A DNA stretch of 58,751 bases from Zygnema cylindricum (Eukaryota; Streptophyta; Zygnematophyceae; Zygnematales; Zygnemataceae). Under the pieces are notes generated by a model, which did no database searches, was not told the origin of the DNA, and worked only from the letters and a program-made list of their open reading frames with translations. Location: positions 1 to 58,751 of the forward strand of contig JBBHKE010001145.1 in assembly GCA_037447655.1 (NCBI GenBank), in the 5' to 3' direction. This document shows, one piece after another, positions 1,469-56,053 of this stretch. Position numbers and translations under genes: made by a program. How positions within the stretch are numbered: position 1 is the stretch's first letter; every line of letters begins with the position of its first letter.

Positions 1469-3602
1469 GTGTCCCAAAAGGGAAAAGAAAAGGAGACACC
1501 TCTCACTCCTATTGCCACAACACCCGGATCTGTGGCTGTGAAGACCGAAGAAAACGATATCCAGATGTGGGAGTATACCAACATGAATGCCAGGCATTTC
1601 ATTCTTAGGCATCTCACTCAAGCATTTGCGACCTCTCATCTTCACATCTTCAAGGCCGAGGAGTTGTGGATGACCTTAGTTGAGATCTATAGAGGTGGTA
1701 CCATTCAAGAGCTCCAGTTAGCTGAACAAAGGTTGAGGAGTTATAATTACAAAGGAGGATAGATGTTAGACTATTGTAATGACCTCTCGTGTCTATATAT
1801 AGAGATGGAGAGTGACGGATGGACAAGCACAATGAAGATGAAAGTTAACACCCTCATCATGAAGTTGCCCGAAGAGTATGAAAATATAGTGTACCGAGTG
1901 CAACAAATGGATGAGAGTGCTTGGAAGTGGAGCACCATGGTTCGAATGATACTCGTGCAGGAGAACACGATTGAGATCCGAAGAGGAGGTAAGTGCATTC
2001 AAGCTCTGGCTGCCGGAGCAGACCGATGGAGAAAGGATTCAAAGAAGCCGTATGGAGGCTTCAAAGGAGAGAAAGGTCAGTCCGGAGGACCGAGGCCCAC
2101 AAAAGGTCTTTGTCATTTCTGCAAAAAGTCGGGACACTTCATCGAGGAGTGTACCAAGCTGGCTGAGCTGAGGCTACAAGAGAATAGTGGAGGAACCTCT
2201 TCTGGAGAGAAGAAGAAGGTGCTTGTTTTCATACAAGTGAAAGGGGAGACCGAGGAGGAGGATAGAGAACTCCTTGACGGAAATTTGGAAGAGAAAGAAA
2301 TCCCTCGATTACAAAAATGTGCTCTTGGAGCTATTCGGGAAGCTCCACAAAAAGGATGAATCATTGACTCAGGTGCAACTATGCATATGTGTCGTGACCG
2401 AAACCTCTTTACCAAACTCAGAAAGATCCCTACTGTAGAGATAGAGTATGGAGATGGGAGAGTAGTTACTACATATCTAGTGGGATCCGTAGATCTAAAA
2501 GTCTTAGTGAAAGTAAAGACTTATATTCTCACTTTCTCTGATGTGTTATACATTCGTCAGCTGAGTAAAAATCTTGTGTCTACTTTTGTGTTAGATGACA
2601 AGGATTTTGATATCTTCACTAGAAAGGGAGTCTTTACAGCTAAGTATGGAGATAAAGTCTACTTCACAGCAGATAAAGGTAGCCAAGGAATGTTTTGGCT
2701 TAACCTAAGTAATAAAAAGAAAAGTGCTTACTATGGTGGTGTCCCGAACTTGATGATTTGGCATAAGCGGTTGGGGCATATGCATTTTGATAAGCTAAGG
2801 GAAATGAAGAAGCTTGGTGTAGTAAAAGGCATTTAATTTGGGGATAATGAAATAATGGATAATTGTAGTGGTTGTGCCCAAAGTAAGGCTCACAAACTGC
2901 CCTTTCCCAAAATTGCCACATGTAGAGGTGAGAAAGTACTAGATCTAGTCCACACAGATATATGGGGACCAACTAGAGTGCCCTTCATTGGGGGGAAGAG
3001 GTATATGCTGACAATTACTGATAACTGGTCCAGATATTCTAGAGTCTACTTCTTAAAACCAAAGTCTGAAACACCAAAGTACTTCAAAGAATACCAAGCC
3101 TGGAGTGAGAAGTTGCACGGAACCCCTATTAAGAGAATAAGGAGTGATAATGGGGGAGAGTACACCTCTAACCAGTTCGAGGAATACTTGAGAGATGAGG
3201 GAGTTCAGCATCAAAAAACTATACTGAATAATGTAGAACAAAATGGGGTAGCTAAGAGGTTAAACCGGACTTTGGGAGATAGTGTGTGCAGGATGTTGGC
3301 AGATAAGAAAACAGGAAGAAGATTTTGGGCAGAAGCCATGAACTCTACCAACTACATTAAAAATAGAGTCCTCACTACAGTCGTTAAACGAATGACCCCT
3401 TATGAGAGATGGGTTGGAACGAAACCAGATATCTCTCACTTGAAAGTACTCGGTAGTCAAGTTTACAATCTTGACACAGATAAGAAAAACTCGAAACTGA
3501 ATGCTAAAGGGAAACCGGGATATTTTGTGGGATATGATGAGGATGTCATGGGATATAGGGTCTATGACTTAGCCAAACAAGATATCATTCTGGTAAAGCA
3601 TC
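1469..3602 (+). pseudogene. Copia-1 gag, protease and integrase (interrupted)
   Basis: One reading frame runs from 1469 with in-frame stops at 1760, 2357 and 2834. In order it shows a Copia-type Gag, a CCHC zinc knuckle (CHFCKKSGHFIEEC, near 2111-2152), the protease motif DSGATMHM (near 2363), the integrase HHCC finger (HKRLGHMH, then CSGCAQ near 2760-2880) and the integrase core with VHTDIWGP and SDNGGEY. The third catalytic position, normally Glu in the NGVAERMNRT-type motif, is Lys here (NGVAKRLNRT, near 3244), and Copia-2 has the same change. The frame runs into a MITE at 3605. In a live element this part makes the capsid, matures it and inserts the cDNA. Confidence 0.85.
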
Positions 3603-3604
3603 TA

Positions 3605-4104
3605 CACCGCGCATCGTAATTAGAGTAATGAGAAATTAGAGTAAAAAAATAGAAAAAAACAAATAGAGTAATTTACTCTAATTTATGTGATAGAGCTGTT
3701 TCAAAAAGGAATTTACTCTAATTTATGCGGTGTACTCTTATTTGGCAAGATAATATCATCTATTGTAAATAAGGTATTCGTACAGAATCTGACAAAACGT
3801 ACAGTTTATCTTCACTATGACGTTTGCACTACGTGGTTTGTTAAAACACAGTTACATGATAATGGCCTGTATTAAATCATTATTTGTACTTTTATACTTA
3901 TAAAAGTACAATTTTGCACGGTCGGACGTCGTCCGTGCTCCACACTATTTAAAATGATCATATATTAGAATTAAAAACGCTAATTAAACCTTACCTTAAA
4001 TAGCATAATGAAAAAATTAGAGTCATTTACTCTATTTGATGTGATATAGTCGAAATTTCGAGCGACCGAATTAGAGTAATTTACTCTAATTACAATTCGC
4101 GGTG
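3605..4104 (+). mobile_element. MITE copy 1, TA-flanked, inside Copia-1 pol
   Basis: It has terminal inverted repeats of about 25 bases (CACCGCGCATCGTAATTAG at the left; the right end reads CACCGCGAATTGTAATTAG on the minus strand). TA lies on both sides (3603-3604 and 4105-4106). Removing the element with one TA makes the flanking pol codons read KHLVVMDE, as in Copia-2 (KHIVVMDE), so it is a clean insertion with a 2 bp TA duplication. The inside is AT-rich with TAGAGTAATTTACTCTA palindromes and no ORF. The TA duplication points to the Tc1/mariner (Stowaway-like) class. Confidence 0.85.
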
Positions 4105-7134: not shown

Positions 7135-10100
7135 CAATAGAATGAACAAGAAATGGGAGCTCAAAAGACATGCGTTTGTCACTTTTGCATAACATTAGGA
7201 AATTATATGGTTGATTGCACCAGATTGCAAGAATTAAGTATCACATAGGGGCAAGTGAACAACAACAAAGAGGAGATGGAGGAGCGTCTCCACAATAAAA
7301 AAGAAGATAATAAAGTGGAAATACGAAGAAAGCAAAAATGTGCATTTGGAGGTAAAAAATAACCTTCGGAGGAAGGGTGGATCATCGATTTTGAGAGCAT
7401 TTATGTATACGTGCAAAGACAAAAGGTGGTTTACAAAGTTGAGAAAGATCCCCATCGTTGAAATAGAATATGGGGATGGTAGAGTTATGACTACAATCGT
7501 TGTATGAGTGGATCTAAAGGTCATAGTTGAAGGGAAAGTATCCATTGTCATTCTTTCAGATGTGCTTTATATACCACAGCTTAGCAAAAATCTGATCTTA
7601 GATGAGAAAGGATTTGTCACAAGAACTTAAAAAGGAAGGTTCACAGTTAATTTTGATGGTGAGGTTTATTTTATAGTTGAGAAGGGTAGCCAGGGAATGT
7701 TTAGAATTGTACTTTGCAATGAAAAGAAAGGTGCCCTCTACTCTTGTGTAAGTGATATTATGTTGTGGCGTAAGAGACTTCGACATGTGCATCTAGATAG
7801 ATTAAGAGAAATGAAGACCAAGGGAATAGTGGATGGGATAAAGATTGGGGAATCTGAAATGATAGATGATTGTAGTGGTTATGCACAACGGAAGATCCAT
7901 AGACTTCCTTTCCCAAAGGTTGCCACTTATAGGAGAGAGAAGGTCTTGGAGCTTGTATACACAGAGGTGTGGGGACCGGCGACATATCTCTCACATGGAG
8001 GAAAAAGGTATATGTCCACCATCACCAATGACTGGTCTAGATATACTAAGGTATACTTCATTAAGCATAAGTCAGAAGTGTTGCGGTACTTTAAAGAATA
8101 TAAAGTTTGGAGTGAGAAATTTCATGAGACCTCCATAAAAGATGTAACAAGTGATAATGGGGGGGAGTACACCTCAAATGAGTTCAAAGAGTTTTTGATA
8201 AACGAAAGAATTCATCATCAGAAAACTGTTCCCGATAATCCGAAACAAAATGGAGTAGCCAAAAGACTAAATAGAACACTTGGTGATATGTCAAAGAGCA
8301 TGCAAACTGATAAGAGGATACGTTTGCGGTTTTGGGCGAAAGCTATGAATTATGCAAACTGCATCAAAAATAGAATTCTAACGTCAGCTAATAAAAATGA
8401 AACTCCATATGAGAGGTGGACCGGCAAAAAACCAGATTTGTCTAGTTTGAGAGTGTTTGGAAGTCAAGTGTTTAGCTTGGATAATGACAAAAAAAAGTGG
8501 AAGTTAGAAGGAAGAGGAAAGCCTGGATACTTGGTCGGATATGATGAGGATAGCAAAGGATACCGAGGGCATGATCTAAAGAAAAAAAATATAATCTTAG
8601 CCAAACACATTGTAGTTATGGATGAAGTAAAATCCATAGATCCGTTTAAATACACCAAAGAAGTTAAAATCAAGATAGTCCCAGATCTAGATTTTAATCT
8701 TGACCTTGAAATAATTGAGGAAAAACACAACGGAGAAACTGAATTTGCAGGAAATTTCAGATGACAAGAAAGTGGAGGAGACGCATGAGGCTCCACTTCA
8801 AACTGAAACTGAAGAAGAACCACAGTCGACGGATAGGGGAGATGAAGTTGTACCCAAACAGAATCCGATGATGCCCTCAATACCGATATCAAAATTTGAG
8901 GGAGGACAAAGAAGGAGCAAACGGATTCAAGAGAGAATGGCCAACAATAAGTTAACCAAGCTATCCAATCTGAAAGAACCTAGAACATATTTGGAAGCCA
9001 TGAATAGCTTGGAAAGGGATAGATGGACAACAACTTTTAATGAGGAAATGAGCTCCATAATGGAGGCAAACACTTGGGAGTTAGTAGATTGTCCTCCGGA
9101 TAGAAACCAAATCGGTTGTAAATGGGTTTTTTAACTATAATTGAACCCAAATAATTCTATAGAAAGGTAAAAGGCTAGGTTGGTAGCAAAATGATACACT
9201 CAAAAAGAGGGAATTGATTATGAGGAGACCTTTGCACCGGTAGTCATGTTTCCCTCAGCTAGAATCCTTCTAAGTCTAGCTGTAGCGGAAGACATGGAAA
9301 TACATCAAATGGACATAAAGTTTTCTTTTCTAAATAGGGAACTAGAAGAAGAAGTTTTCATGAAACAACTGGAGGGACTTGTAGAGGAGGGAGAAAAAAA
9401 CAAGGTGTGCAGGTTGATTTAATCACTATACAGGCTGAAACAAGCGCCCTGACAATGAAACATAAAAGTGGATGAGTTCTTTCAAAATGGGTTACATAAG
9501 GATCAGCTCATATCACTCTATTTATCTTTTTGAATATGAAAATGGTGCAATTTTCATTGCAGTGTATATCGATGATTTGTTTGTTTTGAGTAAATCTATT
9601 GAGAAAATAAATCAACTAAAAATAAGTTTGAGTATTCGATTTGATATGAAAGACTTAGGAGAAGCTAAGTACATTTTGGGAATACGAATAGAAAGGGATA
9701 GAGACAGGAAAATAATCAGACTATCTTAAAGGAAACAATCGGTAATATGTTTCAGAAATTTCAAATGGACCATGCCAATGGTTGCTATACTCCTATGGAA
9801 CTTAAGAAGGTTGGTGAGGGGAATAACGAAGGGGGAGTAATAGTCCAAGATGATCAGATTACTCTAGAAAAACAGAAATTTATGCATGATATTCCCTACC
9901 GACAAATTGTAGGAAAGCTTGATCTACTTTATGAAATGTACACGTTCGGACATAGCGACGGCTGTAGGAGTTCTTAGTAGAAGTCTAAATAATCCGAGAA
10001 AGAAAGACTTGGAGGCAGCCAAGAGGGTAATGGGATATCTTGTGGGAACAAAAGAATTATGGTTAAATCTGGGAGGGGAGGATACTAACATCACCACTTG

Positions 10101-10559
10101 GAGTGATGCTAGTTTTGGAGATGTGCCACTCAGAAGGTCAACTTCTGGATATGTTTTGCAAATTGGGTTGGATGCATACTATTGGAGTAGCAAACAACAA
10201 AAAGTTGTTGCTCAGTTTACAATAGAGGCTGAGTATATGGCATCATGCGCAGCTGTGAAAGAATTGATATGGGTAAAATCTTTGCTGCAAGAATTGAGAT
10301 TTATAAAGAATGGAGTGCAAAACATTTTATGTGATAACCAGGCACCAATTGCAATTGCTCAAATCCCAAACATCATTTTAAGGCCAAACATATAGACATA
10401 AGGCTTAGCTTTGTGAGAAAAAAAGTTGAAAACAAAATCATCAAACTTGTGTTCAAACCAGATGAGGAAATGCTAGCCGATATGATGACCAAAACAGTTC
10501 CTTCACCAAAATTAGTTTATTGCAGAAAAGGTTGTGGGTTCAGAGAAAGAGAGAGCTAA
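7135..10559 (+). pseudogene. Copia-2 gag-pol remnant
   Basis: A zinc knuckle at about 7168-7212 has lost its His (CHFCITLGNYMVDC). The protease region is decayed. The longest open stretch (7697-8764) holds integrase: SDNGGEY-type second Asp (SDNGGEYTSNEF) and NGVAKRLNRT, with Lys where the third acidic residue should be. RT follows in pieces, with catalytic YIDDLFVLSK near 9570, then RNase H (SDASFGD, EAEYMAS, CDNQAP) to about 10540. The order and similarity to Copia-1 are clear; no intact polyprotein remains. Confidence 0.8.
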
Positions 10560-11675: not shown

Positions 11676-12239
11676 AGTTCAAAAATTTGTGGGCAATCTC
11701 CCACCCAATCTTAAAGTTTCATTCAAAACCACTTGACTGAGGCATATGGCCTCAAATTTACTTTCAAGCAAGCTGCAGAATATGCCGTAAGGTATGAAAT
11801 GCAGACCACCAGGTGAGACACTCATGAGCGACCTATCTCTTCTCCTAGAGAATTTCCGAATCCGAATCCTAATCCACACAACCCATGGCCTAATCCGAGG
11901 CCTCCAAGAGCTCCAGCCATGGGAACACTACCAACAACCCCTTGGGTGCGTATTTGTTTCCGGTGTGGTAACAGTGGTCACAACGCACGTGGCTGTTCAG
12001 ATAAGACTGCAACATGTACTCATTGCAATCAGACAAGTCATTATGTACATCGATGTCACATTAAAAATCCCGATTTCAGTTATCAAAATCAAATTAAAAA
12101 CGGTGGTGTACCTTCTTGCTCGGCAAAATTGGTCACTCCACCTAAAGGAGTAGAGAAAGACAACCCTCCAAAAATCAGCAGGAGGGACCGAGAGAAAGCC
12201 GAGATGCAGGTTACCGTGGCGACCAAGACGAAAGACTAG
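11676..12239 (+). pseudogene. Gypsy-A gag, 3' part with double zinc knuckle
   Basis: The frame before 11919 reads a Gag capsid-like stretch (KFVGNLPPNLKVSFKTT, about 11685-11735), a Pro/Asn-rich linker, then two CCHC knuckles: CFRCGNSGHNARGC (about 11950-11991) and CTHCNQTSHYVHRC (about 12013-12054). The amino part of Gag is missing because Copia-2 abuts at 11675. In a live element this is the capsid and nucleocapsid, which packs RNA. Confidence 0.75.
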
Positions 12240-12525: not shown

Positions 12526-12903
12526 GTGAAAGAACGTTTATCAATCCATTCCTCCCTGCTTCCTGTTCTGGATAGTAACGGTAAAATCGTAGATCTAACC
12601 CCGGAAGATGTTGCGTTACAGGCTTTTCAAGACCATCGTATTGCTCTCTCCCTTCAAGCTATTACTCTTGAAGAGCGTTCTAGCCTCACTCCTCACTTCA
12701 GTTTCTTGAAAAACAAATTGGTCGTATTCATAGTTAATGGGGTTACCGTGGTATTACCTTTTATGGATGCAGGCAAAAAACTAATTATCCTCGGATCAAA
12801 TTTTGCCATCAAAATAGGTCTTACTGCAGAGCCTGTCCGCGGTATTACAATAGAACCAATATGTTTTCAGTTTCAGAGTCAGTCAGCGACCGATTTCGCA
12901 TAA
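12526..12903 (+). pseudogene. Gypsy-A retropepsin-like protease region
   Basis: A 125-residue open stretch includes VNGVTVVLPFMDAGKK followed by FAIKIGL, which fits the flap-less half of a retroviral-type aspartyl protease: Asp is present (DAG instead of DTG). It lies where Ty3/Gypsy protease should be, between the zinc knuckles and the next domain. The first 60 residues are not recognised. Confidence 0.55.
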
Positions 12904-12977
12904 ACATATGCTCACGCCTTGGTCACCAAGTGTAGTGATTATGAATGCTTGGTTGGTCAAGACGTTATTTTTTGAGT

Positions 12978-12995
12978 GGGGGGGGGGGGGGGGGG
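12978..12995 (+). repeat. Poly-G tract
   Basis: A run of about 18 G (after GAGTG) lies between the protease and methyltransferase parts. A similar run is at about 18081-18092, near the Gypsy-A 3' end. Both may be slippage products or sequencing artefacts. Confidence 0.6.
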
Positions 12996-13214
12996 GAGGG
13001 GAATATGTATGATCAAACATTTTTGTATAGACAAAACAATTTTCCAGAACGCGAAGTTTAGAAACCTCTTATCTCAGCTCTGCAACCCATGCCTACTACG
13101 ACTCATTCTGTGACTGTCTTTCCAGCCTAAGCAACACTTAACATAGGTTTTGATATTCTTGAATCTTTAACAGCGGACAAAATCTCACAAGATCCCCCGG
13201 GAATACCAGAGTTA

Positions 13215-14381
13215 TTGTGCGCACCCGGATTTACCATTGACTCGTCAGATTTTGACCGGCTATATAAATTTACCATACCAATTCTTTTATTTAGTATTCC
13301 TGATTCACCTCTTTTTCCGGTGGATCCTTTTGAGGTTTTGCCTATAAAATGGACACCGGTCAGTTTACAACCCCACCCGAATAGTCTAGTTATCTTAGAT
13401 CTTTTTGCAAGAATTGGTACTTCACTTCTCGCTTGTCTTCGGAACGGTCTTTTCATTAAACATAATTATTTTGTAGACATTGACCCGTTGGCTCGACGTG
13501 CCCAGTTACACCACTGTCAAATCTTGCACGAGCAATATCCTCACCTTTTGCCTCAGTCCGCTTTTCACAACATGCATTCGGCTTTACCACAGGATATCTG
13601 TTTAATACAAAATCATCATTTGTTGGAGTTAGAACCAATTGATCTCCTCTTTGCCGGATGAGAATGCCAAGTATGTCCAGGGCCGAGAAAGGTTTAGGTC
13701 TCGCAGATCCACGTACAAAGTGGTTTTTTTGAGGTAGTGCGTCTTATCCACTTCTTCCAAAAACTAAACCGTTCATTTGGACACATCTTTGAAAAAGTCG
13801 CAGTTTATAATGACCCTCGACCCACGGTTCTCGCAGATTACTAACGTATTGAATCATTAATTGGACCTCCACTGATCATCGATGCCACGCGCCACGGTTC
13901 GCTAGCCCAATGGGATCGTTCCAAGTGGACAAACAAAGTGGACATTGGCCAGCTCCAATAAGCTAATCTCGCTGTCCGACTACCTAACCTTTCAATTCAT
14001 GATGCACTTCTTCCATTTCATAAGGTCCACACATGTATCCAGACGGACTATCCCCATGTTTTTTGTCTTAAAATCCCTGGCTAGCCACTACATGCACTTC
14101 CCACTCTAGTCGCATATCCCCACTCTCACGCATATTCCCATAATGGACGGGGCATACTTCAAAATACTCATAAAGGCAGCTTAGAAGAACCTACTGCTGC
14201 AGAACACAAACACCTGCTACATTTCTTCTCAAGCACCATTGGTGCTATGGGACTCTTCAAGAGGCAACGCTGCACTTTATTTGGTCATGTCATGGATCCC
14301 CAATCACTGTCATTTGTCTTGGGTTCGCAGCCGGTCGATATGCTCAAAACCATCCGTCTCAATCCGCTAGGGGAGGGCTGA
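13215..14381 (+). pseudogene. Cytosine-5 DNA methyltransferase (DNMT3-like) inside Gypsy-A
   Basis: An intact stretch to 13661 holds motif I (VILDLFARIGTS, 13389 onward; SAM binding) and motif II (YFVDIDPLAR). Motif IV follows at 13653-13670: FAG, a stop where Trp would stand, then ECQ, so the catalytic Cys (13665-13667) is kept but the usual Pro before it is Glu. After small frame changes come FFEVVRLIHFFQ, motif VI as FEKVAVYNDPRP (13788-; ENV reads EKV), IIDATRHGSLAQWDRSKW (motif VIII region, about 13875-13930) and a motif X-like RQRCTLFGHVMDP (14262-). Motif order I to X is canonical, as in DNMT3 and not the permuted DRM type. It would methylate DNA cytosines; this copy is broken by stops. 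Confidence 0.82.
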
Positions 14382-14558: not shown

Positions 14559-14563
14559 GGTAC
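14559..14563. repeat. Left target-site duplication of inverted solo LTR
   Basis: GGTAC here equals GGTAC at 15145-15149 on the other side of the LTR. Confidence 0.8.
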
Positions 14564-15144
14564 TGTAAAAGAGGCACGCTACACCACAACACGTTACAGT
14601 GCACAGCGGAAAACACTGAGGATCTTCCCGTAGCAACAGCAGGAATACACAGAACTCACAGACAAGGTTGAGCTTTATTACTTGAGAGAGAGTACAAAGT
14701 TGCGCTAGCTGTGTAGGTCTACTCCAAGTGTCTCATTCACTCGGTCTACTTGCCTATTTAAACTAGCTAACTGCTAGTCAACCTAGTACTATACNNNNNN
14801 NNNNCGTCGTCGCGTCGTATCGTTGAGTCATCGCGTCGTCGCGTCGTACAACCTAGTACTATACAGCTGTACACGTGGGCCTTCGCGGCCAACCGAGATC
14901 TATCCAAAACTTCCTTCTAGAACTATACAGTTCCAACTACATTCTGCGGCGTTGCTATGCTGCGCTGCTGCGCTACTGAGTTGCTATGCTGCGCTGCTGC
15001 GCTACCAAGTTGCTATGCTGCTATGCTGCGCTGGTCTGGAATCGCAGCTGCGCAGCTCTGGAATCGCAACTGCGCTGCTCTGAAATCGCAACAATAGCAG
15101 CCTAGCCCCAGCCACTAAGTACCCAATTCTGTAACCCTGTTACA
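14564..15144 (-). mobile_element. Inverted solo LTR of the Gypsy-B family, with assembly gap
   Basis: On the minus strand it matches the LTRs at 19031-19507 and 25816-26298 from TGTAA to TTTTACA. No internal element sequence accompanies it, and both sides have GGTAC, so it is a solo LTR left by recombination between two LTRs. It separates the methyltransferase from the RT of Gypsy-A. It contains imperfect GCTATGCTGCGCTGCTGCG repeats (14945-15045) as the full LTRs do, and a 10-N gap. Confidence 0.88.
14795..14804. other. Assembly gap (10 N)
   Basis: Ten N. The 15 bases before it (AACCTAGTACTATAC, 14780-14794) are repeated at 14849-14863, after a CGTCGTCGCGTCGTA-type repeat that the other LTR copies lack. 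The segment 14805-14863 is therefore probably misassembled or locally duplicated. Confidence 0.95.
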
Positions 15145-15196
15145 GGTACGGGCATCCCTACACTGGAGAGTTGCATTTCCGTCTAGAAGTTGCATC

Positions 15197-16030
15197 ATGC
15201 AGTCAATTTTTGCATCAACCCTAGTCACGTATGAGTTGGGACACTCCTTAATAGCGGAGGAACAGCTAGCATTTGCTCAAGCCATGGAAGCCATGACCAT
15301 TAACACTCCTCAAAAACCGACATGGAAATTTGGGACGGGGCTAACAAAACCTGAACACGAACTTTTAGATGGAGTCATAAACCGACGTATATACGCATTT
15401 TCTTTCTCCGTGAAAAACTTAGGTCGACATACCACTTACAAAATGTCAATAGACGTGGAAGATGACAGACCTTTATTTAAGCCCAAGTTTTGTCTCTCAG
15501 AAACTCAATGGGAATCCGGAGACAAACGTTGCATAGATTTTGAAAAGGCAGGTCTGATTTATAGGTCCAATTCCACCTTTACGGCGCCCACCGTCATACT
15601 TCGTAAAAAAGACATGGAGGGGAATTTTACAGAACGTCGCATGTGTGGGGACTATCGAGAATTGAATTCACGTACAATCTAGGACCGACATCCAATGCCG
15701 TTAGCAAAGGACATTTTTGATCATGTCGGAGGTGCTAAATATTTCAGCATCTTAGATTTGCAACAGGGGTTTAACCAAATCGAAATAGAGGAAATGTTTA
15801 TACACAAGACTGCATTTTGGGGAATCGACGGGCGTTGGGAATGGGCAGTTATGACCTTTGGCCTAAAAAATGCACCAACTGTATTCCAAAAAGTCATAAA
15901 CTCAGTCTTGGGGGAATGTAAGTTTGCCTTTTGCTATATCGCTGATCTAATCATCGCTTCAACCTCTATAGAGGAACATACAGTGCATATAGAGTGGGTA
16001 TTGAAGGAATTAAAAAAGGTATGACTCAAA
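15197..16030 (+). pseudogene. Gypsy-A reverse transcriptase
   Basis: Two open pieces in nearly one line (15197-15682 and 15695-16024) give a Ty3/Gypsy RT: RRMCGDYRELNSRT, FSILDLQQGFNQIEI (first catalytic Asp present), MTFGLKNAPTVFQ and the active-site box, which reads YIADLIIAS (15935-). The first Asp of the DD pair is Ala (codon GCT at 15941), which would kill polymerase activity. A stop at 15680-15682 separates the pieces. The family copies DNA from RNA. Confidence 0.85.
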
Positions 16031-16193
16031 TGTCATCCTGCCAAATGCACTTTTGGGGGCCGAAAGGGTACAACTGATTTGACTAGCCCGGGTGCATTCC
16101 TAAGGTAAGCCAATAATAATCCGAGGTTTGTTCCTAGTTTTAACACACTTGCATCTCCACTAAATGAAATCTTGAAATATCAGTTCCGTTCAC

Positions 16194-16652
16194 GTGGGGA
16201 CCCTCTCAGATCAAGACATTTCAGGGATTAAAGAACACACTCCCACCGCTCGCATTCTTTGTCCACCAAATCATATGTTACCATTTTGCCTACAGACAAA
16301 CTTTGGTAAGCCCGCTATTGCGGCCATCCGAACTCAGCCCGAATTCACAGGTGAGGAATATGTGGTGGCTTATGCCAGTCGAAGCAACAATAAAGCGGAA
16401 TCGAATTACAGTGGTTATGAGGGGGAGTGCTTTGCTACAGTTTGGAAAATTGTGCATTTCCGCCAATATCTTTATGGCAAACATTTCACCCTTCTTCCTG
16501 ACCATCAACCATTGCATGGGCTCATGACCAATGACAAGTTGTCATGCATATTAGCCCGCTGGGCTTTTATTTTGCAAGAATATGATATGGAAATAATCCA
16601 TCGACCCGGGCTCCTCAGTTTGAATGCCGACATCCTTTCCATGAACCATTAA
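16194..16652 (+). pseudogene. Gypsy-A RNase H
   Basis: The Ty3-type RNase H pattern is visible: VVAYASRSNNKAESNYSGYE, GECFATVWKIVHFRQYLYG, PDHQPLHGL, IIHRPG and NADILS. The part before 16260 (connection from RT) is frameshifted. It would degrade the RNA strand of the RNA:DNA hybrid. Confidence 0.8.
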
Positions 16653-16673
16653 CCCAACTCTACCAATAATAGG

Positions 16674-17470
16674 GTGCGACAAGATGTCGATGGCGAACTA
16701 GTTGCATCTCTATCGGTTGGAGCACATCTGATTTACAGTTTTCCAGCACCTACAAATCACAAAACCAAACACGATCCATGGCGGGAGAGCTCGTTGATTC
16801 TCTTTTTATCTACCCAGTCTTTTGGAGCAGGCATGCTATCAGTGGAAGAGGAGCGCGTTCGGAAGAGGGCCCAAAGCTACTTATGGATGGGGGGCTCACT
16901 TATTCGTCTTCTCTCAGATGGAAGTCATCGGCATGTTCCACGGCCAACGGAACGACTATTGCTTATTAATCAGATTCATAGAGATCTTGAACATTTTGGT
17001 ACTAAACGGACCTTGAGTTTAGTGCAGAAGCGCTATTGGTGGTCTTGCATGCAGGTCGACGTGGCATCGGTATTTCACAAATGCAGAACATGTGATCGGT
17101 TACAAACTTCATTTTCTAACTCACCACCGCAGCTTTTAAGGAGCATGTGCTCCTCCGATATGGAGCCCCTGCAAAAGTACTTGCGGACTAGGGAACAGTG
17201 CTTCGTGGCGAATTTTAGGGGATCTTAGATGAGGCGCCAATCGACCATCGGTGAACGAGTGGCGACTATCCTCAAGCAAACGGCTTGGTGGAGAGGGTTG
17301 TAGAAACAATTAAGCGGGCTTTGCGTAAACAGTGTTCGAAAAAACAGATTACGGTGTGGGATGAATCTTTAAGATGCATTGTTATGGGTTATCGGATGTT
17401 TCTACTGGCTAGCTTGGAAAACTTCAGTCCCTATTATGTGTGGTTTGGTGAAAAACCACTACTAGGTAGA
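16674..17470 (+). pseudogene. Gypsy-A integrase, core partly deleted
   Basis: A zinc-binding HHCC motif (HRDLEH, about 16977; CRTCDR, about 17083-17100) is followed after SNSPPQLL (about 17135) directly by the late core. The segment with the first catalytic Asp is missing, a gap of perhaps 250 bases. The second Asp (GAC 17186-17188) and the catalytic Glu (GAG 17291-17293, NGLVERVVETIKRAL) are present, with stops near 17189, 17225 and 17250. The piece cannot integrate DNA. Confidence 0.75.
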
Positions 17471-17471
17471 A

Positions 17472-18045
17472 ATGTATAGAAAGCCGCTAGCTTGCCTTTG
17501 CCTCTTATGCTGGATACACTTTTTTTGGAAGAACTTACTAACCGAGCGTTGCTATTTGCTAGGGAAGTGCCCATGGCCTTTGAAAATTTGCAGATTGCCT
17601 AGCATCGTGACTCCTTATGGTTTGCTACAACTCGCAGTGGCAGCTATCGGCCACAACAGAAACCTTTCCGAGTGGGAGACTATGTTTTTATGCGACAGCA
17701 AACTCTTGACACACTCGACGAAAGTTTAAACTCATATTTTGAGGGTTACCGGAATCGACTCTAATGGGTTACTGAGTTTACAACGGGTCGACACGCGCAC
17801 CTTGCGGGAGCATTCAAAAAACTATGCTCCATGCTACTTACCCGATCTTTCCCACAATATAGACCCGTGGCGGATGCCGATCACCGAGGCCACTGAGTGT
17901 CAATTTTGCCAACGCTCGGATGGAGAGACTACTATGTTGCTCTGTAACCACTGCGATTTGGGATTCCATATGGTGTGCTTCGTCCCACATCTGCACACTA
18001 TTCCGGCTGGATAATGGTTTTGCCACGGATGTCGCGACTTACCTA
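17472..18045 (+). pseudogene. Gypsy-A integrase C-terminus with PHD finger
   Basis: After a frame change a GPY-like segment reads PFRVGDYVFMRQQ (about 17660-17700) and, from 17739, TGIDSNGLLSLQRVDTRTL. Then a PHD finger runs from 17898 to 18032 with the Cys4-His-Cys3 pattern: CQFC, CNHC, FHMVC and FCHGC, with spacing C-x2-C-x11-C-x2-C-x4-H-x2-C-x13-C-x2-C. One stop (18012-18014, before WFCHGC) lies inside. PHD fingers commonly bind histone H3 tails, so it could guide integration to chromatin, as chromodomains do in chromoviruses. The role is inferred. Confidence 0.78.
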
Positions 18046-18094
18046 CTATTCTTACCAGCTCCTCTGCAGGCTAACAAGCTAGGGGGGGGGGGGG

Positions 18095-19030: not shown

Positions 19031-19507
19031 TGTAATAGGATTACAAGATTCGGGTACTTAGTGGCTAGAGCTAGGCTGTTATAGTTGCGATTCCAGAGCA
19101 GCGCAGCTGGGATTCCAGACCAGCGCAGCATAGCAACTTAGCAGTGTAACAATTTGATAGCGCCGTAACATAGCAGCGCAGCATAGCAACGCCGCAGAAT
19201 GTAGAATGAGCGGTACAGTTCTAGAAGAATGTTGGATAGATCTAGGTTGACCGGAAAGGTCCACATGTACAGCGTACCGTACTAGTTTGACTAGCACCTA
19301 GTTAGTTTAAATAGTCAGGTGGGCCTGTGAATAGAGCACCTCAAGTAGACCTACACAGCTAACGCAACCTTGTACTCTCTTTAAAGTAATAAAGCGCAAC
19401 CTTGTCCGTGAGTTCTGTGTGCTCCTGCTGTTGCTACTGGAAGATCCTTGGTGGTTTTCGCCTGTGCACTGTGACGTGTTGTGTTGTATTGTCACCTCTT
19501 TTACACT
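19031..19507 (+). repeat. Gypsy-B 5' LTR
   Basis: It runs from TGTAATAGG to TTTTACA. It contains CAGCGCAGCATAGCAAC-type short repeats (19095-19195), a TATA-like GTTTAAATAG (about 19306) and a poly-A signal AATAAA (19388-19393), which lets U3, R and U5 be guessed. Confidence 0.9.
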
Positions 19508-19508
19508 G

Positions 19509-19520
19509 GTATCATAGCTT
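19509..19520 (+). promoter_or_regulatory. Gypsy-B primer-binding site
   Basis: TGGTATCATAGC, two bases after the 5' LTR, differs by one base from the usual initiator-Met tRNA primer site (TGGTATCAGAGC). Confidence 0.8.
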
Positions 19521-19539
19521 TTACCCGTGACTCGAGAGC

Positions 19540-20470
19540 ATGGGTGAACATGGCGTATCTACTACAGAAATGTTGGCGCAAGTTCTCAGGGAGTTGGAAA
19601 GTGTGAGATTACAGAACGCGCAGCTGAGTAACACCTTCAAAGCCTTGGAGTCGCGTCTAGGGGAGCGACCTCATGGAAGCGTAGAGAGAGACTCTCGGAG
19701 ACCGAAATTAAGACTTCCCGACGAGTTTGACCCTGCAAGACACAAGAACCTTGACTCATGGCTATTCTCCGTGGCGAACTATCTCGAGAATTTTCCTAGC
19801 CTATCGGATCGTGAGAAGATTCACTACGCGGGTGGTCTTCTTAAAGGGGCAGCGTGGGCTTGGTGGAGAACATTGGTAGAGGACGATGAGTTACCGACCG
19901 TCTGTGCGCTCTTCGTTCAACTCCTCCGCGACACTTGACAGCCCGTCAACACGATGAAGGCGGCGGAGATAAGATCGCAGTATTGAAGCAACGAACTTCA
20001 GTGATGGAGTTTACGCAGCGGTTCTTAGAGTGCAAAGTTCAAATACCTACGATGACAGAGGATGAAGTCGTGGATCGCTACGTGAAGGGGCTTAAGTCAT
20101 CTATTCGTAGAGATGTGGAACAATGGTTTGCTCGGGAAAGCACGACTCCTCCTCTCTCGGCAATCATCCAGTTTGCGGAGCGGACCGATTTAATCGACTT
20201 TAACCTCCGGAGACCGTATCACTACAGGTCGAGTAGTAGCGGAGGACATCGACGAGACGAAGGTCCAACCCCCATGGAGCTCGGCGCAATTAATGAGGAT
20301 AAGGAAGCGGTCAACGTCCTGCGAAGAAAGAAGAAAACTACCAAGACCAAGACCAATGACTTATCCCCCGAGGAAATCCAGCGGACGAGGCAAAATGGCC
20401 TATGCTTCCAGTGCGGTTCTCCTGATCATATGGCTCGAGAGTGTCCAAAACGGAAAGGTCCCAAAAAGGG
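19540..20470 (+). pseudogene. Gypsy-B gag
   Basis: The ATG at 19540 opens a Gag: coiled-coil start (LRELESVRLQNAQL), then a Ty3-type capsid (KNLDSWLFSVANYL, AWAWWRTL). A frameshift near 19935 moves the rest to another frame, which ends in one CCHC knuckle, CFQCGSPDHMAREC (about 20404-20445). The capsid and nucleocapsid pack the genomic RNA. Only the one frame change breaks it. Confidence 0.82.
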
Positions 20471-23400
20471 AAAAATTACTGTTATGAGGTTAGCCGGTGA
20501 AGGAGGAGACACTTTGATATTTCAGGGTCAAATAGGAGTAAGTGCAGATAACTTGATGGTGGACTCCGGAGCATCGGGGAACTTCATTAACGAGGCGACG
20601 GTGAAAAGGTTGAAACTTCCTCTTGTGGTACTAAATGATCATCAGTCGGTACAATAGGCCGACGGAAGTTCCTTATCCATTACCCATCGTACCCCGAGGT
20701 TACGCGTCGGAATTGGGAAATTCCGATGGTACGACACGCTTCATGTATTACCTCTTGGGGACCATGAGGTAATCTTGGGGAAGCCGTGGCTGCAAAAATG
20801 GAATCCGACAATTTATTGGAGAAGTGGCGCCATGAGAGTGAAGAAAGGTGAAGAAGAGTTCGAGGTAAAAGCGGGAGCGGCTGGTAAGGGAGCGGAAGAG
20901 GGACGCCTGCTTTCGGCCTTACAGCTTAAGAGGGCACTCAAGAAAGGGGAAACGATTGGTATGGCGGTCGTCCAGCCAATGGAGGAGGCGAAGGAGGAGA
21001 TCCCGGAAGAATGGAAGAAGAAGGACCCCGACTTCGACTCCAAAGAAAGTGACGACATTGGAAAGACTTCCGAAGAGGCCCCGGAAGTCGTGACAAAACT
21101 TCTCGAGGAGTACGCAGATGTATTTCCCCCGAAGCTCCCCGAAGGAAAACCTCCGAAGCGCGAAGTAGACCATAGGATAGAGCTTGTTCCTGGAGCGGTA
21201 CCCCCGGCTAATCGGATGTACAAAATGAGCTACACCAAATTGGACGAACTCAAAAAGCAACTCGCGGAGTTGGTCGAAGCCGGAGCAATCGAACCAAGCA
21301 AGTCACCGTATAGAGCCCCCGTCCTCTTTGTGAACAAGAAAGATGGAAGTTTTCGTATGTGCATTGACTACCGAGCGCTGAACAAATTAACGGTGAAGAA
21401 TGCGTACCCCCTACCGAAGATAAACGAATTGTTGGATCGGCTTCGAGGTGCCAAATATTTTTCGAAAATAGACTTGCAGAGCGGCTACCACCAGATTAGA
21501 ATTGCCGAGGAAGATGTGGAGAAGACGGCATTCAGAACTCGATACGGTCATTTCCAGTTTCGGGTAATGCCGTTCGGGTTGACTAATGCACCGGAGACCT
21601 TTATGCATTTAATAAATTCCATCTTTTGGCAATGTCTGGACGCGTTTGTGATCGTCTTCCTAGACGACATACTGGTGTATAGCCAAACGCAAGAGGAGCA
21701 TATGAAGCACTTACGGACGGTCCTCCAGGTCCTTCGGGAAAATAATTTGTACGTAAAAAGAAATAAATGTGACTTCTTCAAGGAGAAGATTGTTTTTTAG
21801 GCCATGTGGTGAGCCGGGACGGAATCGCAGTGGAACCAAACAAGACAAAGGTCGTTAAGGAGTGGCCCCAGCCAGCAAATATCACGCAGTTACGGAGCTT
21901 TCTAGGACTATGCTCCTATTATCGCCTTTTTGTCGAAGGTTTCACAAAAGTTGCTGCACCGCTCACGGAATTGCTCAAGAATGACGTTCCCTATGATTGG
22001 AAAGCGGCACAAGGGACAGCCTTTAACACGTTAAAGAAGCGGTTGGTTACCGCCCCTGTGTTAGCTGTTCCCGACCCGGACTTACCTTGGACGATAATTA
22101 CCGACGCTAGCGATACGGCTATTGGAGCGATCCTTATGTAAGATCAAGGGAAAGGCCTTCAACCCATCGCCTACGACAGTCGAAAACTAAAGGCAGCAGA
22201 GCTGAACTGGGCCACCCATGAGAAAGAGACAATAGATTGATAAAAGATACCATCAATGCGCTGGAGGTTTGGAAGTGTTACGTTCAGGGGAAACGGATCA
22301 CGATTATCACGGATCACCACGCCTTACAATATCTTCAAACCTCGCCGAAGTTGTCCAAGAAACAAGTGCGCTAGATGACGTTTCTGCAGACATTCGGTCC
22401 GGAACTTGTTATAGATTATAAGCCAGGCAAAACGAACCCGGCGGATGCGCTGTCAAGGAGACCTGGAGTCGCTGCGCCAGTAGCGGCGCAACGACCGCAA
22501 GCATCGCAGTTTGGGAACGTAAGCTCTGCGAAAGGGGACGCGGCAGCGTCGACCGCAGCGCAAGATCCGAAACTCAGCGCAGTCACCAGTACGGTGCAGG
22601 TGGACGAACAGTGGTTAGGTCGGATAAAGGCCGCCTATGGCGACGATGATGCACTAAAGGAACTCATTAAACGGAAGGTACTCGTTCGAACCGCCAATGG
22701 TATGTGGCGATACAAACCGAGTAAGACAACCCGACTTTATGTACCAATAAGTACGGAGCTCCGTCACATGATTCTTAAAATGAGTCACGACGAGCCGCTC
22801 AGTGGACATTTTGGGCGGGATAAAACAACTGCACGTGTCGTTGGGACGTATTATTGGCCAAACATGACTCGAGACATTGCCGAATATGTCCGGACGTGTG
22901 ACTCCTGTAATTGGAACAAAACGGACTGAGGGCACCAAGGTCTCTTACAACCCCTTCCGATACCATATGTTCCTTGGGAGGCGATCTCGATGGATTTCAT
23001 CGTGGCCCTTCCACGGACGAAGGAGGGCTACGACTCAATCTTCGTCGTCGTGGATTACTTGACGAAAATGGCACATTTTCTACCCACGTCCACCACAGCT
23101 ACTGCAAGCGATATCGCGAAATTATTTTTTCGGAAGATATTCCGCCATCACGGACTTCCGAAATAAAATCGTTAGCGACCGTGATCGTAAATTCGTGAGC
23201 CACTTTTGGCAAAGTCTATTTACGTTATGTGGCACGTAGCTGGGCATGTCCACAGCCTACCACACTCAAACTGATGGTCAGACTGAAAGGGTGAATCGAA
23301 CTTTGGAGGAAGCATTGCGGGCTTATGTCTCGGTGCACCAAACGGATTGGGTGGACCATTTAACAGCTATCGAGGTAGCATACAACAGTGCAGTGCACTC

Positions 23401-23870
23401 GTCAACGAATGCTACGCCATTCTCCCTCAATGGACGACAGCCCACTCTTCCCCAAAACTTATTGTTAGCGGACTGCCAAACACCGACAGCCCTAGACTTT
23501 GCCAAAACGCTGCAAGGAAACCTGGAAAAGGCGGCCAAGGCGCTCCAAATGGCAAAGGATCGTCAAAAGTCGCAGGCCGACGCCCACCTGAAGGACACCG
23601 TCTTTAGCGTGGGGGACAAGGTTCGCCTTAATATGGCAAACCTCTCCTTGCCGGGTGCCCTCTCTAAGAAGTTGGCACCAAAGTTCACGCGCCCATTCAC
23701 AATTCTTTCCCGTGTGGGCTACGTGGCATACAAGTTGGATATCCCGACGGACTAGCATATCCACAATGTCTTCCATGTTTCCCTTCTTAAACCATTCCAC
23801 GATCCTGATTCACTAATCCCTAATCAACAACGACAAACTCATTTACCACCCGTTCGGGGAACCTCGAACG
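20471..23870 (+). pseudogene. Gypsy-B pol: protease, RT, RNase H, integrase
   Basis: Protease motif MVDSGASGNFI (about 20558). A stop at 20655-20657 interrupts. From 20775, [27 protein letters not shown] and active-site FLDDILVYS (about 21658-21685), the Phe-Leu-Asp-Asp form usual for chromoviruses. A frameshift near 21797 leads to RNase H (ITDASDTAIGAIL; stop at 22139-22141; DHHALQYL; NPADALSR near 22435). Integrase: HHCC with SHDEPLSGHFGRDK and CDSCNW, core [10 protein letters not shown] (about 22990), SDRDRKF (about 23175), TERVNRTLEEALR (about 23284), so all three acidic residues are visible, with frame breaks at 22927 and about 23165. Confidence 0.88.
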
Positions 23871-24030
23871 AGTATGAGGTGAAAGAGATCCTTCAGTCAC
23901 GCCACTCTCGGAATTCCAACTCCACCCAATACTTAGTGCGTTGGAAGGGTTACGGTGCTAAGGATGACTCTTGGGTGGACGAGGAAGATTTGCATTCTCC
24001 GGAGTTACGGCGCCGGTTTCAGCGGAGTGA
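23871..24030 (+). pseudogene. Gypsy-B chromodomain
   Basis: YEVKEILQSRH, then QYLVRWKGYGAKDDSWV and DEEDL form a chromodomain of about 50 residues with the aromatic cage-type Tyr, Trp and Trp positions. In chromoviruses this reads methylated histone H3 and guides integration to heterochromatin. It places Gypsy-B among chromoviruses. Confidence 0.9.
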
Positions 24031-25774
24031 GGACACTCAGCTTTACCGGAGGGGCAATCGCAGCGGCCGCAAAAACGCAATCATCTTGGGGACGTGGCAA
24101 AGGACCGCAGCGGCGATGTTACCACACCGCAACGCTCTAGCAGCGCAGCCACTGCAGCGCAACATGGTTACGATGACGTCAGAGGATCGCAGCACCACCG
24201 CTGCGCTGACAGGAAAGCGCAACGGCGCAATTGTGTTTCACTATGTGGGTAATGACGAACCCTCGGTTTCGCCGCAGCAGCGCAGTTTTATAAATGATGG
24301 ATGTTGCGATACCCTCGTACGCTGCGACGCTTCGCAAAGTCCAAAAGTGAAACCCTCAACCCCCGTGAAGAAAGCCGACATCCGTCCTCACGACCAACCT
24401 AGTCGCGACAGCTTGGAAATTGCTTCTCTCCACACAATAAGTTTACCTTCGTTTATCGAATTACCGGAATTGTCTGGTTCAGCAGTGTCTATGGCGTCGC
24501 CGTCCTTTCCACCACCGAAAAGGAGGAGACTGGTACGGGTGGGACAAGGAGATCCGAACCGTCCCGAGAGATTGTTAAGGGCGACGGAAGCCATGGTGGA
24601 AGCCAGCAGGCGAAGTAAATTAGAAGTGGAGCTGGAACCTAAGGAAAGTGCCAGTAGCGAGGCAGGACCCGCAGAGACCAGTAGAGGGGAGGGGTCAGAA
24701 AACTCACAGGACCCTGAATACACCCCAACCCGGGAAGGTGATCAAGAGTTTAAAGAGGATCATGAGCTATCGGAGGGGGAGGAACCGGAACGAGAACCAA
24801 CGCCTCCGCCAATTGAATAGCGCGCCTCAGATCTAGAGGTGATGCGGGACCCAAACAAGAAGAGTACCGCGGACGAGCAGTCGTCTGAAAGCGCGGAGAG
24901 GAAGGCAGAGGCATAATACCCTTGTGACGAAGATGTGTTCCTCCTGCGAGAAAACCGAAGGGATTCGGAGGAGGAAAGTGAACAAGGAGAGGAAATTCTC
25001 GACTACCTCTTCCCATTACCGGTCGACACCCAGCATCCGGACCTCGCCTTCAGCTTCGTCAAAAGGTTTTATTGGAACCCCTCGGAGTGGCCCGAGGAAT
25101 GGCGTATAGTGAAGCCTGGAGATCCTATCCGTATTCCTGCCGACGTCCCGTCACACCCAGCGTGGAATTTCATGCAGACAAAAGACCTAGGAAATAATCA
25201 TAAAGGTTATGTGCAGTTGAATCCTCACGCTTTACCGTTCGTGGAAGTGGTAGAAGACAACTACAGGTATAGGAGTGATGTTCCCGGGTTACTCCGTCAT
25301 TATCACCCGTGGGATGTCCTCCTCCACGACATCATCTCTAGGGCAGAGGTCACCCTTGAGGTACGGGCACTCAAGCTGGCCCGAAGGAATGCTCTGCAGC
25401 GGGCCCAAGCAGCAAAGAAGCACGTGTCCTTTAAATTACGGAAAGTACCTCGGTGGGAAACCGGCGGACGAGGAAGCGGAGGAAGTTTCCCCAGTGGCTG
25501 AACCTGAAGAACCCCGGATTCCGGCACCGAGGAGCCTGCACCGGCCGCCATTCCGTCGCGACCCGAATTAACCGAGGTTGTACCCAAGGAAGGGGAGGAT
25601 CAGGTTCGGGAGCAAATTACTCGGAGGCAGTTGGCAGCGGCAGATCATCATATCGCGTTGCTGGAGACCCGATGTGAGCAGCTCCAACATCAACTCGACG
25701 CCCTTCGCCAAGAGTTCGAGGAGTATCGCGAGGAAACATAGGACATACTCCGGAAGTTGCAGTTCCCTGAGTAA
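24031..25774 (+). pseudogene. Gypsy-B C-terminal extension of unknown function
   Basis: After the chromodomain the same frame continues for about 580 codons, with stops at 24818 and about 24914, a short frame change near 25500 and a stop at about 25739, ending at 25772-25774. Composition: Ser/Thr/Ala-rich first part, a Glu/Asp-rich acidic part (24640-25000), a globular-looking part rich in Trp, Pro and aromatic residues (25020-25300; SFVKRFYWNPSEW, HPAWNFMQ) and a coiled coil at the end (LLETRCEQLQHQLDALRQEF, about 25655-25715). I recognise no family. It lies in the place where some Gypsy elements keep extra ORFs. Confidence 0.65.
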
Positions 25775-25815
25775 TTCAAGGTTCAGCGGGACGCTGAATC
25801 CTTAGTGGGAGGCAT

Positions 25816-26298
25816 TGTAATAGGATTACAGGATTCGGGTACTTAGTGCCTAGAGCTAGGCTGCTATAGTTGCGATTCCAGAGTAGCGCAGCTGCGATTC
25901 CAGACGAGCGCAACGTAGCAGCATAGCAACTTAGCAGTGTAACAATTTCATAACGCCGCAACATAGCAGCGCAGCATAGCAACGCCGCAGAATGTAGAAT
26001 GAGCGGTACAGTTCTAGAAGAATGTTGGATAGATCTAGGTTGACCGGAAAGGTCCACATGTACAGCGTACCGTACTAGTTTGACTAGCAGCTAGTTAGTT
26101 TAAATAGTCAGGTGGACTTGTGAATAGAGCACCTCAAGTAGACCTACACAGCTAGCGCAACCTTGTACTCTCTTTCAAGTAATAAAGCGCAACCTTGTCT
26201 GTGAGTTTTGTGTGCTCCTGCTGTTGCTACGGGAAGATCCTTGGTGTTTTCCGCTTGTGCACTGTGACGTGTTGTGGTGTATTGTCACCTCTTTTACA
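25816..26298 (+). repeat. Gypsy-B 3' LTR
   Basis: It is collinear with 19031-19507, with about 20-25 differences by eye; it starts TGTAATAGG and ends TTTTACA. A weak purine tract (AGTGGGAGGCA) precedes it. Confidence 0.9.
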
Positions 26299-37759: not shown

Positions 37760-38403
37760 AACTCAAAAGCTTCCTTGGAACACATGTAGTCTGCACTTCG
37801 CTACGGGCAATTTGCAGCTTTTATGGAAGCTTGCTGCATGGCCCTGTCTTTAATTCAAACGTGATGTGGTGTTCGGACGTAAAGCAGGCCGGGGGCGCCT
37901 TTGCCGAAACGAAAGTATCGCAGCAAAAACGGGCGTCCGAGAAAGAGTATGACACGTGGAACGTTTAACATTAGCCTTTGTGTCACCGTGGCATAATGCT
38001 GTAAACCATGCGCCTTTCCGTACCACCTTTCACAAAAATGTCGTCACCACAATGCGCCTTTTCGTACATTGGACCGGCACCTCATACTAAACATGATCGT
38101 GGCCGTCCAAGTTTACGATATACTTTACCCGTGCATTACATGTCCATTCAATTGTGATATGTTTTTCGATATCTCGGATTTCTCATCGTGGTATATCGAC
38201 CAATTGTATCGGCACGGGAAACTATAAATATATCATTGCGATAAATGCAGTTTACTTCGATACGATATAAAACTTCAATGATGACGATATCATGGTGTAC
38301 GATACAGTAGTGGGATCACGAAAGAAACTTTACAATTTGTACATCCTTTCTCATTGAGAGAAAATTCACGGGTTTAAGCTAGGAGACGAGCTTGACTGTA
38401 GCC
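37760..38403. promoter_or_regulatory. Shared divergent promoter region
   Basis: It lies between the start codons of the unknown gene (minus) and UTP6 (plus). The stretch 38150-38320 is rich in CGATAT/ATATCG words similar to the subterminal motifs of the hAT-like element at 28610, possibly a relic. No TATA box is convincing. Confidence 0.4.
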
Positions 38404-55800: not shown

Positions 55801-56053
55801 ATGCACTATGGTACCTGCCTATGCCTTACTGCTTTTCGGAGGTGAAATACGTGTAGAGCATTTAAAGCAAGTACTCAGGGTAGATAACTGGATGGATTTC
55901 CAGGCTCCGGCACGAATTGCAGTTTTGGTGAGGGAGTTGAGGACTCGAGTTGATGACGCTCTCGCTATGAAAATTAATGACGTGTCATTAGATATTTCAG
56001 TATTGCCCGTTGTCGAGGCACTCGTTCACCTTTTGACAACTGATGGATTCTAA
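46806..56053 (+). CDS. DHX57-like DExH-box RNA helicase (5' end not resolved)
   Basis: Nine exons join in phase: 46806-47045, 47237-47400, 48242-49403, 49852-50520, 50880-51023, 51300-51511, 52655-53437, 54322-54556, 54941-56053; 1,573 codons plus stop, without the true start. Order: C2H2 finger ([22 protein letters not shown] split as CPFC and HLKSKH), a dsRBD-like part ([19 protein letters not shown]), UBA ([20 protein letters not shown]), RWD ([12 protein letters not shown]), then the helicase core: motif [47 protein letters not shown], then HA2 and OB-fold. UBA plus RWD is typical of DHX57 and plant DExH7-type proteins. It is an ATP-driven RNA helicase; its targets are unknown. Confidence 0.9.
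54047..54197 (+). pseudogene. Decayed duplicate of the motif V-VI exon start, in intron 7
   Basis: GGTATGTGATTGACAGTGGA (54125-54144) onward repeats the start of exon 8 (54322 onward), including QYEHS- and GMACL-coding bases, with changes such as a stop after EHS. The preceding intron part (CAATTACCCT, GATGTGT) is also duplicated, so the unit spans about 150-190 bases. Confidence 0.75.

Follow-up and report, generated by a model that had tools for sequence, protein, structure and literature searches.

The sequence analysed here, referred to as the window, is a stretch of 58,751 nucleotides from the alga Zygnema cylindricum (contig JBBHKE010001145.1). It holds the remains of a retrotransposon, termed Gypsy-A, in which a DNA methyltransferase (DNMT) domain lies between the protease and the reverse transcriptase (RT). 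Gypsy-A is almost certainly a dead copy of a Ty3/Gypsy long terminal repeat (LTR) retrotransposon, from a green-algal family that carries a DNMT3-type methyltransferase in its polyprotein and a PHD finger in the tail of its integrase. The identity of the family is firm. The features of the locus are listed below; P numbers denote related proteins and L032 a related element with open reading frames (ORFs), both described further on.

11817..12236, plus strand: C-terminal open stretch of Gag with two CCHC-type zinc knuckles, recognized by eye; open frame, zf-CCHC match weak (E 0.076, below the curated cut-off)
12670..12972, plus strand: aspartic protease (pro), decayed; P0002 by tblastn, E 5.3e-11; family PRO profile, E 2e-7
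13386..14321, plus strand: DNMT3-type C5 cytosine methyltransferase domain, decayed; family profile, E 2.4e-72, over profile positions 2-316 of 318; P0001 by tblastn on 13308-14225, E 4.25e-56
14564..15144, minus strand: solo LTR of a second element, Gypsy-B, between DNMT and RT; blastn to 19031-19505 and 25816-26298, 73-88% identity
15272..16201, plus strand: reverse transcriptase, decayed; P0008 by tblastn, E 8.52e-99; RVT_1, 5.4e-17 on 15683-16021
16194..16649, plus strand: RNase H; PF17917, E 4.6e-27 on 16176-16649
16653..17719, plus strand: integrase with its H2C2 zinc domain and core, in broken frames; PF17921, E 1.7e-14; family INT profile; L032 ORF2 by tblastn to 17719
17895..18035, plus strand: C-terminal PHD finger of the integrase; PF00628, E 2.3e-7, above the cut-off; family PHD profile, E 1.6e-16; alignment
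18082..18094, plus strand: G run after the PHD finger, possibly a polypurine tract, judging from the sequence and a similar run past the PHD finger in L032

The order protease, RT, RNase H and integrase (H2C2 and core) is that of Ty3/Gypsy elements. With an H2C2 integrase present, Gypsy-A is not of the DIRS type, which is marked by a tyrosine recombinase. The methyltransferase is on the same strand as its neighbours, as the initial annotation had proposed for 13215-14381. A 318-position DNMT profile was built from the relatives with the window copy left out, and of the 588 six-frame segments of the window only three overlapping ones reached E <=0.05, all at 13386-14321. The proposed domain is therefore real, within narrower bounds; 13215-13385 is the linker between pro and DNMT and lies outside it.

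The motifs of the window copy follow each other in canonical, unpermuted order: I (LDLFARIG), IV (stop-ECQ), VI (FEKV), VIII (AQWDR) and X (LFGHVMD). The order claimed from the sequence alone was thus recovered for these motifs, but I, IV, VI and VIII are damaged. Motif I reads FAR against FSG or FAG in the related elements of type 1 (defined below). In motif IV the tryptophan is replaced by a stop and the catalytic cysteine is retained; in VI, ENV has become EKV, and in VIII, AHRLR has become AQWDR. With these damaged motifs and five in-frame stops (at 13659, 13695, 13842, 13959 and 14082), the copy is dead, in agreement with the decay noted earlier. When the domain was read through with stops as X, it matched no Pfam family and no solved structure, and the direct match to PF00145 that had been anticipated was not obtained. 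The same read-through found a single protein at E <=1 among 2251 candidates in a large protein collection, namely P0001 (E 1.1e-53, 39% identity over 76%). P0001 itself matches PF00145 (E 8.8e-8), and among solved structures DNMT3C and DNMT3A rank first for it. CpG observed/expected ratios were 0.78 for the DNMT region, 0.72 for the whole window and 1.05 for Gypsy-B. CpG depletion was considered as a methylation scar; the DNMT region is below Gypsy-B, yet not below the window mean, and depletion was therefore dropped as evidence.

The enzyme class was addressed with the family profile. Among solved C5 methyltransferases DNMT3A/B/C were nearest (1.1e-25 to 1.2e-19), followed by 4onj (1.1e-11), HhaI (3.6e-11) and DRM2 (2.4e-8). 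The profile aligned from N to C terminus on DNMT3A, over 267-464 and then 549-590. This alignment and the motif order in the window differ from the DRM arrangement, in which motifs VI-X precede I-V. A first structure model, from 7 sequences, was poor (pLDDT 42.7) and was discarded. A modelled relative aligned with DNMT3 over 277 residues, with DNMT3A/B/C as the top-ranked folds among the chains that Foldseek ranks. In the family rows the catalytic cysteine of motif IV is retained in 96/96, the EN of motif VI in 96/98, and the two arginines of motif VIII in 101/102 and 102/102. The residue ahead of the catalytic cysteine is glutamate in 67 of 96 rows, against the usual proline.

Relatives were collected by searching with P0001, which gave 8 proteins (P0001 included) among the 7999 candidates sharing most words, and with its DNMT domain, which gave 99 proteins among polyprotein-length candidates. 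The collection comprised 106 different proteins. P0105 is doubtful (E 2.9e-3, no pol domain); it was kept in the motif counts and left out of the trees and the distance correlation. Two layouts were distinguished. In type 1 the DNMT follows the protease or precedes RT; in type 2 it follows RT or RNase H, or directly precedes the integrase without RT between. The 107 rows (window included) fell into 28 of type 1, 72 of type 2 and 7 unassigned; 26 of the 72 type-2 rows, having no visible RT or RNase H, were placed by the DNMT-then-integrase rule alone. Protease and DNMT are joined in P0002 and P0007. DNMT, RT, RNase H and integrase are joined in P0010, P0015 and P0017, with the PHD finger also in P0015. 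In P0038, P0047 and P0079 RNase H is followed by the DNMT and then by the integrase, with a PHD finger at the end of the protein. The sources named are Haematococcus lacustris, Closterium sp. NIES-54 and Monoraphidium neglectum, and two labels, Chrzof1 and Mesvir1, we take to be Chromochloris zofingiensis and Mesostigma viride; the row labelled Mesvir1 holds pro and DNMT only. The proposal that a Gypsy element captured a DNMT3-like enzyme is upheld by the single-ORF fusions, by the open-frame L032, and by DNMT3A/B/C being nearest in both sequence and fold. Viral contigs searched with P0001 and P0007 gave no relative; with the family alignment they gave 31 partial loci, 28-56% identical in the best segment, which were not used further.

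The trees recovered the two layouts. One branch of the 102-row DNMT tree (support 99) held 70 type-2 rows, 2 unassigned rows and P0084. A tree of 41 selected rows, with 10 of the 72 type-2 rows, gave the same type split (100/98). The window DNMT grouped with P0001, P0002, P0003, P0009 and P0015 (96 in the larger tree, 99/95 in the smaller), and its long end branch is expected of a decayed copy. The same split was seen in the RT tree of 39 rows (97), where the window stood next to P0015 and P0008 (99); window and P0015 RT are 66% identical. P0084 is type 1 by its domains, yet its DNMT falls in type 2 beside P0038, both from Haematococcus; we take it for a type-2 element that lacks RT. There is a correlation between DNMT and RT distances (r 0.61, n=35; 0.51, n=30 within type 2), and none of 2000 permutations was as high. 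The methyltransferase has thus long remained with its own element. The layout split may reflect one capture and a later move, or two captures.

At the end of the integrase a PHD finger is present in 48 of the 49 ORFs that extend at least 240 residues beyond the integrase core. The window PHD finger retains eight of eight zinc ligands, with one in-frame stop ahead of the last pair; a Pfam scan of 17730-18011 found no chromodomain, and the PHD finger is there instead. Among the best 60 of 62 rows, the P0015 PHD finger was nearest to KDM5A, Lid, JARID1D, CHD4 and KDM5B, then to WSTF, PHF12, PHF21A, BAZ2B and AIRE; KAT6, DPF3, UHRF1 and KMT2D were also among the matches. The window piece was nearest to BAZ2B, Lid and KDM5A. 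Several of these fingers read the histone H3 tail unmethylated at K4. Since such readers are among the nearest kin, targeting to chromatin without H3K4 methylation is proposed. The initial annotation did not mention the PHD finger or the solo LTR, nor did it include the second layout or the occurrence in chlorophytes.

A search of genome contigs gave at least three loci from 598 pattern matches; L033 and L034 were weak partial matches, and L032 was used. L032 (CADCWO010000201.1) is a 9285-bp contig filed under a cyanobacterial metagenome-assembled genome. Its content is that of a eukaryotic-type Gypsy element, probably eukaryotic sequence within that genome. An exact repeat of 127 bp is shared by the two contig ends. 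This fits a circular assembly, in the simplest case of a multi-copy element whose two LTRs were collapsed, and possibly of a real circle. ORF1 encodes protease and DNMT up to a terminal TAG (3489-3491); ORF2, in the same frame, contains RT, RNase H, integrase and PHD finger. The stop context, TAG CAA TCA, matches UAG-CARYYA, the type-I readthrough consensus of plant viruses (PMC5382211), and is the sole plus-strand match in L032. At the protein level, ORFs P0016, P0021 and P0022 finish in nearly the same peptide as L032 ORF1, and P0012, P0013, P0019, P0020 and P0018 in a second common peptide. The position of the DNMT ahead of a readthrough-type UAG, together with the shared ORF ends, suggests that in the L032 subclade it is probably part of the Gag-level product. 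This placement is not general, since DNMT and RT share one ORF in 8 of 27 type-1 proteins (window excluded), among them P0008 and P0015, the nearest kin of the window. From the DNMT through to the PHD finger, the L032 ORFs are collinear with their matches in the window; the L032 protease part gave no match to the window at 1e-3, the window linker holds no UAG-CARYYA, and no primer-binding pattern was found in L032. The earlier expectation that live relatives exist or existed fits the open frames of L032, which is a candidate for such a relative.

The mechanism that we propose builds on the domains and their order, the single-ORF fusions, the retained catalytic residues, the DNMT3 fold of the modelled relative and the UAG context in L032. 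Gag, protease and DNMT would be synthesized as one product; in the L032 subclade, leaky reading of a single UAG would then add RT, RNase H, integrase and PHD finger. Packaged along with RT and integrase, the DNMT would methylate CG sites of the new double-stranded cDNA or of the new insertion. The PHD finger belongs to a class of readers of the unmodified H3 tail; it could bind H3 and guide the integrase to chromatin without H3K4 methylation. A copy methylated in advance would resemble resident silent DNA and do little harm, so that host and element could both persist. Identity and mechanism together are favoured as the best explanation, at a probability of roughly 0.6; for the mechanism in its main lines, taken separately, we put the chances somewhat below even. 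Held a shade more tentatively is a wider proposal of an old green-lineage Gypsy family, spread over chlorophytes and streptophytes, that carries a complete 'reader plus writer' of silent chromatin. The integrase would contribute a PHD finger of the H3K4-unmethylated class and the polyprotein a DNMT3 catalytic domain, and the two would rebuild in separate pieces the ADD and catalytic domains of animal DNMT3. In one subclade the DNMT, placed before a leaky stop, would reach Gag amounts and, as a major component of the particle, would methylate element DNA before or at integration.

Other explanations were weighed against this one. DNMT-bearing retrotransposons were, as the initial annotation had stated, known from dinoflagellates and charophytes: Gypsy elements of Klebsormidium and DIRS elements of Symbiodinium carry DNMT3, and Symbiodinium LINEs carry an orphan DNMT (PMC5890265). 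Gypsy-A might thus be simply another decayed copy of the published charophyte kind, KnitGypsy-Dnmt3 of Klebsormidium nitens (de Mendoza et al. 2018), with nothing new in its layout. That element is likewise Ty3/Gypsy with an intronless, unrearranged Dnmt3-type DNMT in Pol, and may share layout and PHD finger. However, the main text of PMC5890265 mentions neither 'PHD' nor 'chlorophyte'; a legend gives a DIRS-like repeat arrangement, and the acquisition is placed in the K. nitens lineage, one charophyte lineage, whereas the members named here include chlorophytes. We consider this reading possible but unlikely. It is less probable still that the element DNMT no longer matters as a methylating enzyme and serves as a DNA-binding or decoy module. 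The glutamate ahead of the catalytic cysteine and the lack of KnitGypsy activity in yeast, an inconclusive result reported in the same work, point that way, but the conserved cysteine, EN and arginines and the DNMT3 fold of the modelled relative speak against it.

The captured enzyme could also have come from ChloroDNMT, a lineage named in 2025 and reported from chlorophytes and charophytes (PMC12344493), and not from DNMT3. This is improbable given the clear margin of DNMT3A/B/C over 4onj, HhaI and DRM2 in a comparison with solved structures, no ChloroDNMT being among them, and given that the C-terminal part also aligns with DNMT3A. A role of the DNMT in defending the host against DNA viruses is very unlikely: an antiviral role has been suggested for accessory domains of retrotransposons (PMC6338049), but here the DNMT is fused into the element polyprotein and its distances track those of RT, which argues for use in the element's own cycle. 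Adjacency is all that speaks for a retrotransposon having inserted into a host DNMT3 gene or pseudogene. This explanation can be set aside almost completely, since the DNMT shares an ORF with pro or RT in P0002, P0005, P0008, P0010 and P0015, and in L032.

The family resembles other known systems in part. SymbioDIRS-Dnmt3 and SymbioLINE-Dnmt also bear a DNMT, SymbioDIRS occurs in two domain orders, comparable to the two layouts here, and SymbioDIRS enzymes methylate CG in yeast (PMC5890265); these are tyrosine-recombinase DIRS and endonuclease LINE elements, in contrast to the H2C2/rve integrase of the present family. Chromoviruses likewise have a chromatin-reading domain past the integrase, as does Gypsy-B of the window with its chromodomain (PF00385), whereas the present family has a PHD finger and a DNMT. 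Ginger1 DNA transposons share a Gypsy-type integrase with extra C-terminal domains, including a PHD finger in Ginger1-9_HM, but they are DNA transposons, and RT or DNMT is unmentioned in their description (PMC2836005). A 2025 survey described transposon DNMTs in streptophytes and dinoflagellates, naming Copia and DIRS (PMC12344493). Green algae are not wholly without reports of transposon methylases of one sort or another. Beside the published elements the kind itself is known, and what appears to be new is the PHD tail, the two layouts, the probable Gag-level placement of the DNMT and the chlorophyte members. Among the matches listed, the open-access literature held no report of these; subscription papers and preprints lay outside the search.

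It is an open question why a mobile element should carry the enzyme that serves to silence it, and in the literature consulted the question is based on dinoflagellates and a single charophyte. The present family makes it testable, since the relatives are numerous, the PHD finger after the integrase is conserved, the DNMT occupies either of two positions, and in one subclade it precedes a stop that is likely to be read through. The family may likewise be a source of de novo methyltransferase for chlorophytes, whose surveyed species are reported to lack a host DNMT3 (PMC9861306).

Some further observations concern the relatives and the window. P0086 (Closterium sp. NIES-54, 579 aa) has a Copia-type Gag (PF14223, E 1.6e-17) fused to the family DNMT; a Copia element possibly captured this DNMT too. 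A G-patch domain (PF01585) is present in the type-2 polyproteins P0037, P0042, P0044, P0050 and P0075. In Gypsy-A a run of 19 G (12978-12996) lies directly past the protease. The solo LTR of 581 bases is bordered on both sides by GGTAC (14559-14563 and 15145-15149) and contains the only run of 10 N of the window; its insertion widened the gap between DNMT and RT. For Gypsy-A, a search of the surrounding sequence gave no LTRs of its own, and a search for tRNAs found none. Gypsy-B occupies 19031-26298, with two LTR-like copies (19031-19505 and 25816-26298) and the chromodomain (E 8.6e-10). Two further retroelement remains, Copia-like from the reading of their ORFs and with integrase-profile matches, lie at 1763-3619 and 7697-10395. 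Host genes, apparently intron-split, are seen at 38392-39644 and 48234-56053: the first is UTP6-like (PF08640, E 1.2e-26), the second encodes a DHX29-like RNA helicase (PF24899, PF00271, PF07717).
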